A stretch of DNA of 64,000 nt from Tenrec ecaudatus (Eukaryota; Chordata; Mammalia; Afrosoricida; Tenrecidae): assembly GCF_050624435.1 (NCBI RefSeq), contig NC_134539.1, forward strand, positions 48,392,001-48,456,000, given 5' to 3'. Both the position numbers and the translations under genes were made by a program. Below, piece after piece: positions 3,390-59,832 of the stretch (position 1 is the first letter of the stretch; each line of letters opens with the position of its first letter). The notes beneath the pieces were generated by a model. That model worked only from the letters and a program-made list of their open reading frames with translations, did no database searches and was not told where the DNA came from.

Positions 3390-4155
3390 TAATTTGGCAT
3401 TCTGTCCAATTTGTTTCATACTCAAGAAGAATACAGCAGGACTCATCCTTTTTAAGTCAGGCTCAAAACCAAAACACGCGGCTGACTTGGTGTTCAACTT
3501 CGTGTGGAGCCAGGAAACATTAAGTCAGAATATGAGTTCCATATTTTGTGGGATGTGTGCCCATGAAGCGCAGGTGAATAGGTTGATCCTGGAACCAGAC
3601 AGAGCTAGGGTTTTTTGATGGTAAGTAAGACTAAGCTTAACTAAGACTAACCTAAGGGAAAATGATGATGGTGATGATGACAACGTTGAAAATGATGATG
3701 AAATGCTATGAGGGAGCTTTGAGAATCGAAGGGAAAGATGTTGAGTGAGTCCTAGAAAGAAACGCACCTATGGCACTCCAAGGACTATGGCCTTCCAAGA
3801 CATGGCCAGGAAACTATAAAGGCAGCCCTTTCAATGCTTCTCAGTTTTCCTGTGTACTTAAGATTTTTATTTCAGAAATAAAAGTATTCAGCTGGCTTTC
3901 CATGGATTATATGCCTCAGGTTAAATAGGAGAGAACAAGGTACTTGAATTAATAGTCACAAAGTATATCAAATAGAGAAATGGACAAATTTGTCCAAAAG
4001 GATTACCCAAAAAGGTGAAATGGACACAAAACAGCTAAAAAATGGGTAAAGGTCGCTGCAGCTTTTTGTTACTGGTATAAACTCAAATAAACTTACCCAC
4101 GTCCATTCTTATTAAAATAAGACTTCACTCCTTAGAGATCCTGGTCTGGTATATT
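3390..4155. other. Unassigned sequence
   Basis: AT-rich with a short GATGAT-type repeat at about 3663-3703. I see no gene or named repeat. Confidence 0.45.
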
Positions 4156-4159
4156 CACT

Positions 4160-4218
4160 GATGTGCCCTAATTATCTCAAAGACACCTGACACGTGATAG
4201 GTGCTTAATTAATCTTTG
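4160..4218 (+). repeat. MIR/L2-type 3' end
   Basis: The stretch 'gataggtgcttaattaatct' followed by 'ttgttgaatg' is the typical ending of the MIR core-SINE/L2 shared tail. It is an ancient mammalian repeat, present only as a short end piece. Confidence 0.5.
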
Positions 4219-4269
4219 TTGAATGTATAAAATACCCAAAACAATCCCCCACTTTTGAAACTGAGTTAC

Positions 4270-4450
4270 CACATCGAAAACAAGTAAACAAAACCACTGC
4301 CATCAAGTCCATTCTGGCCCAGAGACCCCACGTAGGGCTCCAGGACTGTAACTCTTAGAGAAGCAAATAGCCTCATCTTTGTCTCAAGAAATGGCAGGCA
4401 GATTTGAACTGCCAACCTTTTAGTTAGCAGTCAAATGCTTATCTGACATC
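4270..4450 (-). mobile_element. AfroSINE, old copy
   Basis: The reverse complement shows the AfroSINE order: a tRNA-like head ending in 'gttggcagttcaaatctgcc', then the body with the multi-indel 'gggctccaggactgtaactc' block, then the 3' end near 'aaaaccactgccatcaagtcc' (read on the plus strand). It is diverged. Confidence 0.55.
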
Positions 4451-4489
4451 AACATCAGAATTCCTGGAGATAAATCATAAAAAACAAAG

Positions 4490-4662
4490 ATGCTCTCTGC
4501 CAATGAGTCAATGCTGACTCATAGTAAACCCCTGTGGGTTTCTGAGATTATAACTGTTTATAGGAGTAGAAAGCCCCGTCTTTCTCCAACTAGTGGTTTT
4601 GAACTGCTGACTATACAGATTTCAGCATGATATATAGCCACTAGTCACCAGGGTTCCTTCAT
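4490..4662 (-). mobile_element. AfroSINE, minus strand
   Basis: Read on the minus strand it begins 'ggaaccctggtgactagtgg', continues to a B-box-like 'cagttcaaaaccactag' and ends with the body blocks 'aaacccacaggggtttac' and 'atgagtcagcattgactca'. Those two body blocks are the standard AfroSINE 3' half. It lies only 40 bases from the previous AfroSINE in the same orientation, and the two are probably separate insertions. Confidence 0.7.
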
Positions 4663-4664
4663 AG

Positions 4665-5171
4665 ACATAGGTAAAATTTATGCCAGAGAAATTTTCATTA
4701 TTGTTATTGTTTTTAAGATGCATATGTGGGGATTATTTACTCTATGGTAAAATATTTGCATTGCTAATATACACTAGTTACTCTGTGATTCCCAACAACA
4801 AAAACAATTACTAGCTAAATGAAGTCTGCTACTGAATGCTGGGATATAGTATTCAAATGGATGATATAATAATATGAAAGGAAATGGAAAAAAAGAATTT
4901 TAACAGGTTGGCATCTTCTCAGGAGTCCAGCAGCCTAGGAGTGGCACCAATGTGTCATTAGCTCCAGACCCAAAGTGATGATCTCTGGCCTCAGTGTTTC
5001 CCTGGACTTCTCTTCCTTCCCTCTCAGCTGATGTCACCACAGAGAAGATATCCCCACAACCGTCATCAGACTGCAAGCCCGATGAGCCTCCACTCCTGCT
5101 TCCTTCACTCTTGGAGGATCACCTTTCTGCTTCTCTTAAAAAATCAGCAGCCTGAAAAAAAGGATACCTTC
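4665..5171. other. Unassigned sequence upstream of the L1
   Basis: AT-rich to 4900, then mixed. No recognised element. The L1 homology begins abruptly at about 5172. Confidence 0.45.
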
Positions 5172-6150
5172 CTGCAGAAAAATGAAGCAAGACCTTTATC
5201 TCACTCCATGCACAAGAATAAACTCAAGGTGGATCGCAGACCTCGAGGTAAAACCCCATATCATTAAGGCATTTAAAGAGGGAATTGGGACAAACCTGAG
5301 GACCTTGGCACAGGGAATACATAGGCTGTCGGAAATAGAGAAGGACACAAACACAGAGGAAGCACAAAGTGACAAAGTGGGATGTACTGAAGATAAAACA
5401 CCTGTCTGTATACATCGAAAGAATTTTCTAAGAGAGCCCACAGACTGGGAAGGCATCTTTAACAATAACACAGACAAAGGCCTTATGACTAAAACCTACA
5501 ATAGTCTGCTAGCCTACATACAATGAGAAAGAAACAAATAGCCCATTGAGGAGGTGGGCAAAGGACCTGAAGAGAAGTTTCACAAAGGTAGAAATTTGAA
5601 TGGTCAATAGATGAGAAAATGCTCCCAATCATCAGCCATAAGGGACATGCAAATTAAAATAACTATGAGATACCACCTGACACCCTCAAAGATAGCCCAA
5701 CTCAAAACATCAGAAAGCAACACGTGCTGGAGGGGCTGTGGTAAGATAGGAATTCTCATCCACTGCTGGTGGACGTGCAGGCATGTGCAGCCATTAAGGA
5801 AATCGATATGGAAATACCTAAAAAAAATTAAAATCAAGCTACCATATGACCCAGAAACCTCCCCACTGGCCATACACCCAAATATGTAAGACACAACCCA
5901 CATATAGACATCTGTGCTCCAATGTTCATCACAGCCCAATTCATAATCACAAAGAGTTGGAAACAACCGACATTTCCATTAATGGATGGATGGATTGAAA
6001 CTCTGGTTTATACATACAGTGGGTACTGTACACCTTGAAAGCACTGATGAATGCATGCATGCAGCACTTACCACCGCATGGGAAGAGTTGGAGAATATCA
6101 TACTAAGTGAAGTAAGCCACACACAACAGGGCAGGTGCAACACGAATCAC
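5172..6150 (+). pseudogene. L1 ORF2 C-terminal remnant
   Basis: The segment encodes the post-RT, C-terminal part of L1 ORF2 in several broken frames. It aligns well with the second copy at 37597-38570: both share 'gcagaaaaatgaagcaagac' at the start, the block equivalent to 'ACEHMCSLLLAL'-type downstream motifs such as 'LPYDPE', and the end block with 'MEYY'-like coding. The cysteine-containing stretch around 5725-5790 corresponds to the L1 zinc-knuckle-like CWWTC region. Stops and frameshifts make it non-functional. It is 5'-truncated, so RT and endonuclease are absent. Confidence 0.85.
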
Positions 6151-8565
6151 TGAGGTGAGCTAAAACAGCACAGGGGCAAAGGGGAAATGCCATGAAATGC
6201 ATCCATTCCCAGGATGAGGCGCAAGCACTCTGGCAGGGGTCTGACCCAACCAGGAATGCATATGGAAGCAGACAAAACGGAGGGGAGGGGGAAAAAAAGA
6301 GGACGTGGATAGTGGGGAAATAGGGCACTAACCCAGTCATGGGGACGATATTGTCTCCACAAGAACGGGAGAGAGGGACCAGACCTCAACCTGGTTTGCC
6401 AAGCCTTTAGGGCAGTGGTTCTCAACCTTCCTAATGCCGCAACCCGTTAATATAGTTCCCCATGTGTTGTCCCAGCCATAAAATTATTTTTGTTGCTACT
6501 TCATCACTGTCATTTTGCTACTGCTATGAATTGGGCAACCCCTGTGAAAGGGTCATTTGATACACACCCCCCCCCACCCAAAGGGGTTGCGACCCACGGG
6601 TTGAGAACCACTGCTTTAGGGCAACATACCAGCATGAAGTATTGAACTAACAGAGAGGTCTGCAGGGTCAGCTCAAATCCCAGTTACATTGACCCCCTCC
6701 CCAAAAGACTGCACTACAGAGGACAGTACTGGACATACAGCCTGGGGAGAGGGGCAGGTCTCCCCAGACCACACAGGAGCAAACTAAGGGAAAGAGAGAG
6801 AGTGGACCACCCCTTGGCCCACTAAGCCCCAAGGACAACACTCCTGCTCGGAGCAGCCAAGGCAAAGAAAGGATTGTACAGCTGGCCCCACCCTGCGACA
6901 CAATGTCCCCTCACTGACCCACGGTGCTACAGGTGACAGCACTGGATTCACTGTGTGGAAATTGTGCCCAGTCTGAACCACCACCACCACCACCCACACG
7001 GGGGTGAAACACGAGGGAGAGCGACAGAGTAGCAAGGGGAGCAAAGCAAACCCTGAGGGATCCCAAAAATAGGCTTCAGACTTGGAAGGCAGAGCTGGGC
7101 ACCTCAATTGGAAAACATCACAAGTGTCAGCAAACAGACCTGGAACTATTTATAGGTCCTTTTTGGTTGTTGTTCTTCTTTTTTCATATCTATCTATAGA
7201 AGATAGGCAAGATAAACAATCCTGAGGAGAAAACAACAGGACTAAAAGTTCCAGTGGGGACAGGGGAGAGGGGGAGGGAAGGGGGAAAGAGAGTGGGGAG
7301 GAACAAAATCAGGGACAAGGGAAAAATAAAAGATTTAAAATCAACGGCGAGGAAGGTGTAGAATGTCTGGTGACATTTGATCAAGTGCAACGTAGCTGAG
7401 AGGAATTACTGAGGGCTGAATGAAGGTCGAACATATAATGGGACAGGAGGAAAGTAAAGGAAACAGAGGAAAGAACTAGTAGGCAAAAGCCATTTATAAA
7501 GGTATAAATATAGGCATGTATGTATGTAAATATATTAATAGGGACATAGGTCTATGTACCTATATTTATATGTTAAGTATCAAGGTGCAGATGGACATTG
7601 AGCCCCTACTCAAGTCCTCCCTCAACGCAAAAACACTTTGTTCTAATAACCTGGCACTCTGTGATGCTCACCTTCCTGACACAATCACTGAATTCACAAT
7701 GGGTGCATAGAAAATGTGGTGAAGAAAGTTGATGGTGCCTAGTATCAGAAGATATAGAACCAGGGTCTTAAAGACTTGAAGTTAAAAAAGTAGCCATATG
7801 GTAGGGAAGCAACAAAGCCCACATGGAAGAAGCACAGCAGCTTGTGTGATCACGGGGTGTTGATGAGATCAGGTATGAGGTATCAGAAGACCCAAAACAA
7901 GCAATTATATCAATGTAAATGAGGGGGGTGGAGTGGAGAATGAAAGCCCATCTATAGACAATTGGACAACCCCTTACAGAATGGTCACAAGGAAGGGACA
8001 AGCCAGCTAGGGTGCAGTATAGCACTGATGAAACACACACATTCCTCTAGTTCTTTAATGTTTCTCTCTCCCCGCCCCCCTCCACCATCCTGACCCCAGT
8101 TCTACCTTACAGATTCAGCTAAATGGGAGCATGTGCACTGGTACAGAGAAGAGCTTTTGATACACAAAATCCAGGACAGATAAATCTCTCAGGAAGAATC
8201 ACGGGAGTAGAGATACCACGAGGGTAGGGAGAAGATTGCAGGGAGAGGGGGAATGGATTGTAATGGTCAACGCATAACCCCCTCAAAGGTGTTCGAACAA
8301 CAGAAACATGGGAGAAGGGAGACAGTGGACGATAGATATGAAAATAGTAATTTATAGTTTAACAAGGGGTCACATGGGTGAGAAGGGGGGAGGGGAAACA
8401 GAGGAGCTGATACCAAGGGCTCAAGTAGAAAGAATATGCTTTGAAAATGACGATAGCAGCTTGATACAATTGCTGTGTGGATTGTTATAAGAGATGTAAG
8501 AGGCCCCAATAAAATGATTGAAATGTAAGAGATGTAAAAGGCCCCAATAAAGTGATTCAAAATAT
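6150..8565 (+). mobile_element. L1 3' UTR, long, with duplicated tail
   Basis: This is the unusually long 3' UTR of the same L1, split by the SPIN-like insertion at 6413-6613. It includes the block with 'aagcccacatggaagaagca' near 7817 and the distal block 'ctgataccaagggctcaagt' near 8407. The last about 75 bases hold two near-copies of a 38-base unit, each with an AATAAA hexamer (about 8490-8527 and 8528-8565). The same terminal doubling is seen in L1 tails at 17.2 and 45.0 kb. Confidence 0.8.
6413..6613. mobile_element. SPIN-family-like hAT MITE (201 bp)
   Basis: The element begins CAGTGGTTCTCAACC (6413-6427) and ends with its exact inverse complement GGTTGAGAACCACTG (6599-6613). It is flanked by an identical 8-bp duplication, ctttaggg, at 6405-6412 and 6614-6621, which is the hAT TSD length. 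The internal blocks 'cctgtgaaagggtcatttg' and 'aaaggggttgcgacccac' are those I recall from SPIN_NA elements. There is no coding capacity. It sits inside an L1 3' UTR, so it is younger than that L1. URR1-like rodent hAT elements share these ends, so family assignment needs alignment. Confidence 0.88.
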
Positions 8566-11140
8566 GAACACCTATTCTGCCTTTGTTTGAAACTTCTTGA
8601 TCAATAAAACTCACAAACAAATGTTTTCTTTTAAGAAAAATAATCAGAAATCATTAAGCTTGGACTAGGAAGGAAGGTAGGGAATTGAGCAAAGAGATTG
8701 ATGACTTTCACCCAAAAATCCTTTCTTTATTCCTTTTTCATTAGAAGGAAATATACTGTCACCTAAAGGCAGGCTCTCCACCTCTCAGGCATTCCTTCAG
8801 CAAATCAGCTCTTCTTTATTGGGTCTTCATTGTCACCCACCACCCCCATTTTTACATGGGTCCTCTTTTCTAGACAACAGGCCAGCTCATCTTTCGCTTT
8901 CCTACAACTACGTTCATGACCTCTCCCCTCCAATCAAGCACTCTTTCTGCCTGTGCTCTCAGTGACCGCCTGCTTGCAAAGGTGATCTAGACTCACCGCC
9001 TCCCCTTCCCACTCACTCCAGAAAAGCAAACAGTCTTCCAACATGTTATTGAAACTACTGAGACAAAGTCCACCATGACCACCAATTGCAAGATCCACCA
9101 TCTGCTATGAAATCATTATGCAACCTGAACTTCGTGCCTTGTCTCTCACCTGGACCTCCACTTCGTCCACCACTGTGAGATTCTGGTTGTTTTGTCTAGT
9201 TTATTCACTCAGAAAGCATATACTAAGCACCTTTCCTAAATATAAAAATGATACCCGAACTACAAACGTGAATATAAAATACTAGAAATATGAAAGAGCA
9301 CCAGCTCTAAAGGCAGTATTATAACCTGGAGTGAATTCTGGAAGAGTGGAAGGCTATTGGCCAAAACACCTGCTGGAAAAAAACCTACAGAATATTAACT
9401 GTAGTTCAGTTAGAATTATGCTCATGTTAATATTCATTTATTCCAAATATTCTGTAGTTTTGTGGAAGTTGAGTTGTACAATGGTTGGAGGTTGGAATCA
9501 ACCCAGAGGAAGAAAAGCCACTTAAAAAAAATTCCTATTTTAAAAAACAACAACAGCCACTGAAAACCTTACAGGGGGAATTCTATTTAGCACTGTTCTA
9601 CTCAGACATCACGAAGTTGCAGGTCAGAGTCAAATCAAAAGCAGTGGGGAGGTTAACGATTTGGGTGAAAGATACTTTTCTAAATATCTTTATAATTTTT
9701 ATATAAATCTAAATCTGTTCCAAAATAAAAGATCTGTAAAGTGAATAAAATATGCTTCCTTGTCTACAGGGATCTCACCATGATCCACTGTCTTGGAATA
9801 GATGAGATAGATGTTGGAAAAAATTTATGAACCACTGAAGTAAATCAGGAGTAAATACAGACACCAATCTGCTTTCATCCACAGTTTCCCCCATCGCATG
9901 TTGCACAGTTTGCCATGTATCCTTGGACTATGTCATAGGCATTCCATATAAATAGGAGAGAGGCACATCCAAGGGTGAATTTTTACACATTCCTAGATAA
10001 TAACTTTTGAGGTTTGGGAAAGACCCAGAAAACTATAAGCCAACTCAAGCTAAATCACTTTCTAAGAAGCGGAACGCTAATATATCATCTACATACTTGC
10101 AATGTTTGAAAGAGTTCGTGCCAGAGAGGTGATTGCTCCTTTCTGATTGTCTAACTGCCAGGATTCCTGAAAATGGCATTTTAATGAAGGGTTTCCACGG
10201 CCCCCTCTTCAAGCAGACTTTGATGTGGTTGAAAATTTATTTCTCTCCCAAGTGTAGACAAGGCACCAATTAACTCACATAGAGCACTCTTGCTGTCTCC
10301 CAGCTTGGAGTTTATTATGGTTACCACGCAGCGTCTTAGCCCATTGTCTCACCGCCTGGTAGGCTTGCCTCCTACAGACTCAACGTAATTTCATAACCAT
10401 CTTTCTGCTTTCTCCTTCTTTTTAAAATATGTCCATCTTTCATTTTTCCACAAATGCTCTCATAGTAGTAAGGGGTATAAACCGAGGAAAAGGGTGAGAT
10501 AGACAAGCTGCTTCATCAATCAATGGAGTCTGCGATAGTGTTGGTTTTATTAACTGTGGCGTGCATTTACCCAGACCTACAACCTAACACATAAAGGTAC
10601 AAGATAAATAAATACATGTCTAAGAATTTGGAGTTTAATGGTAGAAATTGCCATGCTCATAGCTATAGAATAGGAGGAAATGTAAATTAGAACTATGCCC
10701 TGAATTTTCTTGTTTTGTTTTTATGGTGACAGTTACATTTAAAAAAATGCTTTCATACACAAGGGCACTGCCTCTTGGTTAAATGGGAGTTATGTCAGTC
10801 TGTGAATTTAAGGCTTTTTTTATTCTGGTGATTGGAAAAATCATTAAGAAAGTTAAGGAAAAGTAATTGAAACAAACCTTGGAGACACTGAGCCTCTGCT
10901 GCGGCTTCAGTTTGCTGACTCGGGCTCTCTCTTCCTATCCCAGTTAAGGTATCAGGAAACTACAAGAAAAAGAATCCACATGATTTCACTGCATCACGTG
11001 ACCACACCTAGCTGCAAAGGCAACTGCTAAATAGTGTCTAGCTGAGCAGCCTTTTTGCCCTTCTAAAACTCCTAGGACTAACAAGTAGATGTAGAGAAGA
11101 ATTCTTGGGAAGAATTACAAGTCTCTGCCAGTGAAGGTAA
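8566..11140. other. Largely unassigned sequence
   Basis: No gene recognised. A possible very old AfroSINE body fragment lies at about 9545-9655, around 'ccactgaaaaccttacaggg' and 'tcagagtcaaat', but it is too diverged to call with confidence. The remainder is AT-rich and unremarkable. Confidence 0.4.
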
Positions 11141-38575: not shown

Positions 38576-40626
38576 TATAAAAAAAGAAAAGAAAAATGCA
38601 AAAGGGGCACAGGGAAAAGCTACTGTACACAAACACTCCAGGGGTGAGATCCAGCTAGTATGGCAGGGGCCAGACCAAATCCAGGGGTATATATGGCAGC
38701 CAACTAAAAAGGAGTGGGGTGAGGAAAGGGGGAAAAAAAAGAAATATGTGGCAATGGAATAGGGTACTGACCCACCCAAGGGGAGGGTATTGTTTGTGTC
38801 TCTACAGGGAACGAGGGACCATACTTAAATCCAGTGTTCCAGAATGCGAATTCAGCGGGCCGTCATGGAAAGGGGAGCCAGTGGAGGGGTCTGAGGGTTC
38901 GGCTCCCATATCAACTACTGGGCATCTACCCCTCCTCCCAGAAGAATTTATTTTAGAGGATGCAGCTAGGGGAGAGGGACATGATCAGAGCACATGGGAG
39001 CAAATGAATGGGGAGGAAGAGAGAGTGGAGCACAGCCTGGCCTACCAGGCCTGGAGGACGATATCTCTGCTCTGAACAGCCAATGCAGAGTGGACCATAT
39101 GGCTGATCCCACTATGAGACACATCCCTCACTGACCCATGGCCCTACGAAGGACAACACTGGAGACTCAGTGTTGGGATTGGCCTGGACTAAAGACGTGA
39201 GGCAGAGCAATGGGGAGAGCAGAGCAGGAACCTCCCAAGGGAGTGCAAAGGATAGACCCTGGGGCCAGAGTGTGGCACCCCATTGGATTTGACTGGAGGA
39301 CATGCCTAGAGGTCAAATATCAGACCTTGATGTATTTACAGGTTTTTCTTTCTTTTAATTTTTTTTCTTTTTTTTAATTAATTTAGTCTTATTGTTTATT
39401 GGTTTTCATTTTTGTTGTCATAGTTGTGTTCTCTTTTATCAATTTGTCTTGCTATGCCTTGTTTTTTGGTGCATATTATTATCTCTACAGATCTCTCTAG
39501 ATAAGATAGGCTGGATGAACAGTCTGGAGGAGAAAACAACGGGACCAATGTTTCCTGGGGGACATGGGAGAGAGGGAAGCGGGGTAAGAAGGTGGTGTTG
39601 ACCAACCCAGGGACAGGGGAGCAACAAGTGATTCAAAATTAGTGGCTAGGAGGGTGTGAGAGGCCTGATAGGGATTGTAACTGAGAGAAATTACTGAAAC
39701 CCAAATGAAGGCTGAGCATGATAATGGGATAATTGGAAAGTAAAAAGAAAATAAAGGAAAGAACTAGGAGACAAAGGGTATTTATACAGGTCTAAACACA
39801 GGTGTGTACATATGTAAATATATTTATATAGGATGGTGGGGAAATAGATCTATGTGCATATATCTATAGGTTTAGTATTAAGGCAGCAGATGGACATTGG
39901 ACGTCCACTCAAGTACTTACTCAATGCAAGAACTCTTTGTTATATTAAATTGGCATTCCATGATACACACCTTCTCAACAAAATTGCTGAAGACAAATGT
40001 GTGTATAAGCAAATGCAGTGAAGAAAGCTGATGGTGCCCGGCTACCAAAAGATATATAGCGTCTTGGGCCTTAAAGGCTTGAAAATAAACAAGCAGCCAT
40101 CTAGCCCAGAAGCAACAAAGCCCACATGGAAGAAGCACACCAGCCTGTGTGACCAGAGGTGTGTGACCATAAGGCATCAAGTAACAAAAAAATCATATCA
40201 TTGTAAATAAGAGTGAGTGCAGAGTAGAGACCCAAAGCCCATCTGTAGGCAACTGGACATCCCTTTGACTAAAGGGTTGTAGGGAAGAGATGAGCCAGTC
40301 AGGGTGTGGGTAGCAACAATGAAACATACAACTTTCTTCTAGTTTTTAAATGTTTCCTTCCCCCACTATCATGACCCAATTCTAACTTACAAATTTGGCT
40401 AGACCAGAGGATGCACATTGGTAGAGATAGCAACTGGAAACACAGGGAATACAGGTTAGGTGACCCATTCAGGGCCAGTGGTGAGAGTGGTGATACCAGG
40501 AGGGTGGAGGGAAAGTGGAGTAGAAAGAATCAATTGCAAAGATCTACATATAACTTCTTCCCTGGAGGATGGACAACAGAAAAGTGGGTGAAGGGAGACA
40601 TCTGACAGTGTAAGACATGACAAAAT
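38575..40626 (+). mobile_element. L1 3' UTR, cut short before the poly(A)
   Basis: Colinear with the 6150-8565 UTR (without the SPIN insert). It ends abruptly near 40626 at 'agacatgacaaaataac' instead of continuing to the tail. The following sequence repeats an earlier part of the UTR, so a rearrangement cut the element here. Confidence 0.85.
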
Positions 40627-49842: not shown

Positions 49843-50032
49843 GATGACCTGCTGGTGCAGTGATTAAGCACTTGACTGTTAACCAAAAGGTTGACAGTTT
49901 CAATCCGCCTACTGCTCAGAAGGAGGAAGATGTGGCGGCAGCGGACTCTGTAAGGATCAGAGCCTTGGAAAGCCTACCGGCAGCTCTGTCCTTCTGGGAC
50001 CCCTATTCCTCATAGTCTATCAGAAAGGAACG
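49843..50032 (+). mobile_element. AfroSINE, plus strand
   Basis: The head 'gacctgctggtgcagtgatt' passes to 'ctgttaaccaaaaggttgac' and a B-box-like 'agtttcaatccgcc' (49896). The body has 'cttggaaagcctaccggcag' and 'cagctctgtccttctgggac'. The tRNA-derived head is the best kept part. Confidence 0.75.
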
Positions 50033-59235: not shown

Positions 59236-59452
59236 GGGCAAGTAGGACTCCTGGTAGTGTAGTGGTGGTTATACATTGGGCTGCTAACCCGAGGTCAGCA
59301 GTTCTAAACCACCAATCACTCAGAGGGAGAAAGGGTCTTTCTAGTCCCATAAAGAGTTGCAGTCTCAGAAACCCACAGGGGCCTATTAGAGTCGTCATGA
59401 GTCAGAATCAACTTGATAGCAATGAGTTTGACTTGGTTTGGTTTAAGGTAAG
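59236..59452 (+). mobile_element. AfroSINE, well preserved
   Basis: Complete order: head 'gactcctggtagtgtagtgg' (59247), A-box region, 'cattgggctgctaacccgag' (59274), B-box region 'ggtcagcagttctaaacc' (59293), linker 'cagagggagaaagggtcttt', body 'cagtctcagaaacccacagg' (59361) and 'atgagtcagaatcaacttga' (59397), and the TTTGGTTT-type end (about 59437-59445). Near-matching flanks tttagggcaagt and tttaaggtaagt (two mismatches) may be the TSD. Confidence 0.88.
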
Positions 59453-59636: not shown

Positions 59637-59832
59637 TACCATCTCCATCAAGGGAGCCCTGATAGCACAATGGGTTGTGCATTGGGCTGCTAACCACAGT
59701 TAGCAGTTCAAAACCATGTCACTCTGTAGGAGAAAGATGAGGCTTTCTATTCCAGTGGAGGGGTATAGCCTCAAACACAGGCTTGGTTCTAAGAAACAAC
59801 TAAAGGTCAGTGAGTTTGGTTTACCATCTCCA
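59637..59832 (+). mobile_element. AfroSINE with 11-bp TSD
   Basis: Head 'gggagccctgatagcacaat' (59652), 'cattgggctgctaaccacag' (59680), B-box-like 'agttagcagttcaaaacc' (59698), body with 'tatagcctcaaacacagg' (59764), end 'gtcagtgagtttggttt'. The flanks share taccatctcca at 59637-59647 and 59822-59832. The body is shortened compared with the 59236 copy. Confidence 0.85.

Follow-up and report, generated by a model that had tools for sequence, protein, structure and literature searches.

A SPIN-type MITE nested in an aged L1 3' untranslated region, with autonomous partners and open transposase loci in the same genome

An inverted-repeat element interrupts an L1 3' untranslated region (UTR) in the 64-kb stretch of DNA analyzed here (the window), and it raises the question of which transposon family it belongs to, how it was mobilized, and whether it arrived before or after its L1 host. 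The initial annotation had described it as a 201-bp element with perfect 15-bp terminal inverted repeats (TIRs) and a perfect 8-bp target site duplication (TSD), CTTTAGGG, and that description was accurate at every coordinate. The element and its surroundings comprise the following features.

6405..6412, no strand: left TSD, CTTTAGGG, of the form nnnTAnnn
6413..6613, + strand: SPIN-type non-autonomous hAT element (MITE), 201 bp
6413..6427, + strand: left TIR, CAGTGGTTCTCAACC, 15 bp
6599..6613, − strand: right TIR, exact reverse complement of the left TIR
6614..6621, no strand: right TSD, CTTTAGGG
6413..6532, − strand: MITE half corresponding to the autonomous element's 3' end (bases 1-124 of the consensus, with the junction placed to within a few bases)
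6533..6613, − strand: MITE half corresponding to the autonomous element's 5' end (bases 124-194 of the consensus)
5153..8523, + strand: host L1, with an ORF2 remnant and a long 3' UTR (approximate limits, set by similarity to further L1 pieces in the window)
38620..39200, + strand: paralogous L1 3' UTR lacking the element (an empty site that has diverged)

The inverted arms match over 16 bp, because the last base of the left TSD is G and the first base of the right TSD is C. A scan of the window for perfect inverted ends (8 bp or longer, 60 to 3000 bp apart) flanked by a perfect 8-bp TSD returned the element at 6413-6613 as its sole match; in 100 simulated windows the same scan gave a total of 12 matches at an end length of 8 bp and none at 10 bp. 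The 201-bp element has no coding frame that reaches 110 codons. With Rfam models, the whole window had no match at gathering thresholds; at E 0.1, the one match across 4000-9000 was a weak tRNA hit that lies outside the element.

We searched the element against its own genome (3.92 Gb in 2140 contigs) and scored the best 40 of 2879 candidates. The 39 copies other than the window copy were 81 to 85% identical to it over almost the full element length, and the majority of all 40 gave a consensus of 194 bp. Mean K2P distance to this consensus was 0.088 for the 40 copies and 0.073 for the window copy, figures that are biased low because the 39 copies are those most similar to the window copy. By this measure the window copy has become about 7% diverged from its family since insertion. 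Among the 39 other copies, TSDs were perfect in 10 (in L037 once its right end was moved by one base), had no more than one mismatch in 23, and no more than two in 29; the remaining 10 had no convincing duplication. The form nnnTAnnn was present in 31 of the 39 left flanks and 32 of the 39 right flanks, compared with a frequency of 0.058 for TA across the window, and a central TA was present in all 10 perfect TSDs. The form nnnTAnnn is the target of TcBuster, and SPIN is placed in the Buster family (PMC3499496).

The family is also abundant. The first 25 bases of the element had 10,206 exact copies in the genome and the backward-read control had none; with about 91% retention per base, this points to a copy number of the order of 1e5, which is a rough estimate. 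Such a number fits the figure for the lesser hedgehog tenrec. An exact 25-mer of the element had no matches in viral and prokaryotic contig collections, which were searched as a source of SPIN relatives. Within the consensus, GCGACCC occurs four times over both strands, a count reached in 38 of 2000 simulations.

Autonomous partners were sought in the same genome with a Buster-type C-terminal motif, and 150 of 2595 candidates were scored. Four of these matches contained unbroken frames of 614 to 615 codons that belong to the SPIN family: L128, L129, L130, and L131, on contigs C55, C121, C40, and C40, respectively (three contigs). One further open frame had 700 codons, and the other 145 matches had at most 259 codons. 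Both element ends were present in L129 (2786 bp) and L131 (2834 bp). The 3' ends of L128, L129, and L131 matched MITE consensus 1-124 (3-124 for L128) at 84 to 91%, and L130 has lost the corresponding end. The 5' ends of L129 and L131 matched consensus 123/124-194 at about 89%, and L128 and L130 matched this half in part (124-177 and 130-189). The two halves of the MITE are therefore the two ends of elements of about 2.8 kb, and the MITE is an internal deletion derivative from which about 2.6 kb has been lost.

All four open frames keep the motifs QLDESTD, CTDGAPA, THC, RWLSRG, and TTYLCE, which we take to be the hAT catalytic motifs. The transposase open reading frame had no Pfam match at E 0.001, with the hAT C-terminal domain PF05699 appearing below that cutoff only (E 0.003), and as a single sequence it matched no chain in the PDB. 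PF05699 was, however, present in 15 of 26 transposase relatives. A profile of the 26 relatives matched Hermes in the PDB weakly (E 2.5e-4, with no stretch passing alone), and the 11 top structure matches to the predicted fold of one relative, P0001 (pLDDT 81), were all Hermes chains (E 1.6e-8 to 1.4e-6). The transposase of the SPIN partner thus belongs to the hAT superfamily. A second route to the partner, through PF05699 itself, returned 30 of 147 matches, and SPIN ends surrounded the domain in none of these 30 loci; L095 carried one MITE piece at the edge of the locus. A second hAT family was seen along this route (L071 to L095), mostly with short frames and a common C terminus like TNAATERVFSTVNK.

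The distribution of the transposase outside this genome is patchy. With 7978 candidates scored and 120 of the 1835 matches listed, the L131 transposase was 92% identical to that of Protobothrops, 89% to those of Crotalus, Bufo, Nycticebus, and Myotis, and 88 to 89% to that of Pantherophis. Because the transposase is 92% identical to that of a snake and 89% identical to that of a toad, we infer that SPIN arrived by horizontal transfer. In a transposase tree built by a quick method, 12 of 35 inner branches were starred, and the four transposases of this genome joined Xenopus with a support of 80; the tree is poorly resolved, and we therefore name no donor. Two groups of relatives stand out in their own right. 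A protein from the tunicate Clavelina lepadiformis (P0042; 15 member sequences) covers 95% of the SPIN transposase at 78% identity and may represent a SPIN-like invasion of a marine non-vertebrate. Eight muroid rodent proteins of 624 to 757 amino acids (P0019, P0025, P0027, P0028, P0032, P0033, P0034, and P0038) form one strongly supported clade within the SPIN transposases, which, judged from these proteins, looks like a single co-opted SPIN gene. The patchy distribution at high identity fits the published picture of SPIN: SPIN with vertebrate relatives in Rhodnius (PMC11614815) and SPIN_NA_1_Et in a bat, probably through horizontal transfer (PMC3183009).

Comparison with known systems led to the same family. 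The element resembles SPIN and SPIN_NA (e.g., SPIN_NA_1_Et) in its 8-bp nnnTAnnn TSD, in being a deletion derivative of about 200 bp with an autonomous partner of about 2.8 kb, and in a transposase common to snakes, frogs, Myotis, and slow loris, and no difference was seen. SPIN MITEs are already known from tenrecs. A working sequence of URR1, a murine SPIN-type MITE with which the initial annotation had suggested an alignment, did align, at 184 of 192 bases identical to the consensus, with one 33-base internal gap and one 2-base gap; URR1 differs in having the 33 extra internal bases and another deletion junction. OposCharlie1 (OC1) has a transposase and ends that we assume to differ from those of SPIN. 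Like SPIN, it is a horizontally transferred hAT element, found in Echinops with a mean divergence of 8.1% (PMC3621081). TcBuster, from Tribolium, is likened here by description: it shares the Buster family and the nnnTAnnn target but is an insect element (PMC3499496). The suffix of SPIN_NA_1_Et points to the known tenrec MITEs (PMC3183009), and a printed mouse primer matches 19 bases at the right end of the element (PMC2767504). Two printed stretches from the mouse Pqbp1 region are SPIN-like in look and are not counted as proof (PMC3713010). A k-mer match in PMC10794066 was rejected, being an amphioxus primer unrelated to SPIN.

It is thus nearly certain that the element is one of the many copies of a non-autonomous SPIN (hAT superfamily, Buster family), a derivative of an autonomous SPIN of about 2.8 kb, that transposed into an aged L1 3' UTR. 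The proposal of a SPIN-type MITE in the initial annotation is backed by the family consensus, the nnnTAnnn target, the autonomous partners in the same genome, and the patchily distributed transposase. An older hAT MITE family with similar ends, common to all Afrotheria and distinct from SPIN, is very improbable. Other hAT families do exist in this genome, and many of the 30 PF05699 loci have another C terminus; however, the elements whose ends correspond to the two MITE halves encode a transposase with 89 to 92% identity to its counterparts in pit viper, rattlesnake, toad, slow loris, and Myotis. Such identity to distant tetrapods speaks against a vertically inherited, Afrotheria-wide family, as does the mean family divergence of 8.8%, measured on copies selected for their similarity to the window copy. 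We give practically no credence to the idea that chance or misassembly produced the inverted and direct repeats; that idea is ruled out by the simulation control and by the 39 other genomic copies, the majority of which have recognizable TSDs of their own.

The SPIN element thus identified could be ordered in time relative to its L1 host. The initial annotation had placed the insertion in an L1 3' UTR, with the L1 first, and had offered the stretch at 7.6-8.5 kb as the L1 reference. This stretch proved unsuitable, as it consists of the 3' portion of the host L1 itself and leaves out the insertion point. Usable empty sites were instead provided by the window L1 at 38.6-39.1 kb and by 30 other L1 copies. 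The latter came from a sample of 39 copies besides the host L1, which together are the best 40 of 7765 candidate matches to 6622-7021. The junction was spanned by 30 of the 39 copies, none of which contained the element, and the other 9 do not reach across; these empty paralogous copies bear out both the L1 placement and the order. The majority target in the other L1 copies is CTTGAGGG, and a central TA was present in none of the 30 (one is gapped there). The T of the TA core, at 6408 and 6617, was, among the copies compared, found in the host L1 alone. Since both flanks read CTTTAGGG with TA and none of the 30 other copies has TA, the host L1 had changed GA to TA before SPIN inserted. Further, the K2P distance of the host L1 from its family was 0.128 (mean of the 39 others, 0.140), versus 0.073 for the MITE from its own. 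Nesting, mutated target, and divergences agree, and the relative date, L1 before SPIN, is solid. The 3' end of the L1 also holds a duplication of a 38-bp unit with an AATAAA-type signal (8488-8561).

A series of events would connect the ends, duplication, family, autonomous partners, empty sites, and order of events described above. An autonomous SPIN of about 2.8 kb would have undergone internal deletion that kept its two ends only, yielding the MITE. With SPIN transposase supplied in trans, a MITE would then have been excised from another site and integrated at CTTTAGGG through a staggered cut of 8 bp, whose repair would have produced the 8-bp duplication. The target would have been the 3' UTR of an L1 copy that was already aged and mutated. 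The cut-and-paste chemistry in this proposal is modeled on hAT elements in general.

The element had also been taken as a hint that the host is a tenrec. Matches to a working AfroSINE consensus numbered seven at E <1e-4, versus none at that level in three shuffled decoys. The AfroSINE-like fragments lie at the following positions.

4385-4657: AfroSINE-like fragment
49848-49917: AfroSINE-like fragment
59245-59428: AfroSINE-like fragment
59653-59716: AfroSINE-like fragment

The first of these fragments contains a weak match to the tRNA model (4389-4450). A ZMYM1 fragment was most similar to manatee (82%), followed by anteater (78%) and carnivores (77%) among the 120 of 128 matches listed, and, against expectation, only 71% identical to an African elephant record; no tenrec protein was present among the 120 listed of 128. 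The ZMYM1 fragment and the AfroSINE-like repeats suggest an afrotherian ancestry of the host. We counted 18 autosome-like contigs plus one X-like and one Y-like contig, or about 2n = 38; contigs were counted from matches, so that smaller chromosomes were possibly missed. Sengis have 2n = 26-34. Golden moles have 2n = 26-34 and Tenrecidae 30-56 (PMC13063843), and about 2n = 38 is compatible with Tenrecidae and outside the golden mole range. A tenrec host is therefore strongly indicated by the AfroSINE-like repeats, ZMYM1, and the chromosome number, but with elephant ZMYM1 at only 71%, the hint falls short of proof. Another afrotherian host, such as a golden mole or a sengi, which would mean that SPIN invaded a further lineage, is improbable given the chromosome number and the estimated copy number; a sengi (2n = 34) was set aside once C130 and C133 raised the count of large contigs above 17.

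Two further observations concern the assembly. A ZBED-type frame of 727 codons occurs with the same score at C139:712739-712975 and C152:19688341-19688577, and the X-like contig C139 (169.7 Mb) is out of size order. Because C139 and C152 share this frame, it is probably a pseudoautosomal X/Y gene and the individual probably a male. All 25 cytochrome b matches (on C71, C40, C1, C22, and others) lie on large contigs, and nearly all have stops, as expected of nuclear copies of mitochondrial DNA; no mitochondrial contig was found among them.

The four open transposase loci differ from decayed copies of the family in their pattern of substitution. Pairwise dN/dS among the four was 0.25 to 0.38. The decayed set consisted of 14 of the 150 scored matches, all with broken frames (2 of the 14 cover <225 codons). 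The ratio of nonsynonymous to synonymous changes was 2.50 in the decayed copies, which also had 60 stop changes, and 1.24 in the open copies, with a neutral expectation of 2.37 under an assumed CpG weight. Private synonymous changes per codon were 0.0245 in the open versus 0.0236 in the decayed copies (4 versus 14 copies), whereas private nonsynonymous changes were about 3-fold fewer in the open copies (0.0282 versus 0.0813; Fisher P = 5.6e-8). Each open locus taken singly gave P values of 0.0003 to 0.03. Choosing copies by their open frame eliminates stops, yet such a choice alone does not reduce the number of missense changes.

The age of these loci bears on how they are read. Mean 5' noncoding divergence was 0.091 for the four open loci versus 0.094 for 11 other copies (a set that differs from the 14 above), with L131, the reference row, having the lowest value (0.053). 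When the L131 frame served as a DNA query, the three remaining open loci ranked first (93 to 94%) and the next copies reached at most 91%. On these identities the open loci could be a younger subfamily, yet their noncoding 5' and 3' parts differ by 14 to 22%, which counts against that reading. The TSDs of L129 and L131 have two mismatches and one mismatch, respectively, and the ends of L128 and L130 are eroded or lost; the insertions are therefore old. The best reading of the four open loci, as far as their sequences go, would be co-option after insertion, and we put at about even the chances that the tenrec lineage, once invaded by SPIN, independently retained four or more full-length copies of the SPIN transposase as host genes. 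Long-lived active SPIN lineages are a weaker alternative explanation of the open loci. The apparent constraint may also possibly reflect a small sample that was chosen after the frames were seen.

The single insertion at 6413-6613 is an ordinary event involving an element of an already known kind. It is, even so, a clean case in which the host L1 supplies a relative clock for a SPIN insertion, and both TSD copies preserve a pre-SPIN L1 mutation, GA to TA, that is the core of the SPIN target. If co-option of the open loci is true, the presence in one mammal of several SPIN-derived transposase genes under constraint would matter more than the single insertion and would allow testing of the repeated recruitment of horizontally acquired transposases, for example, as repressors of their own MITEs.
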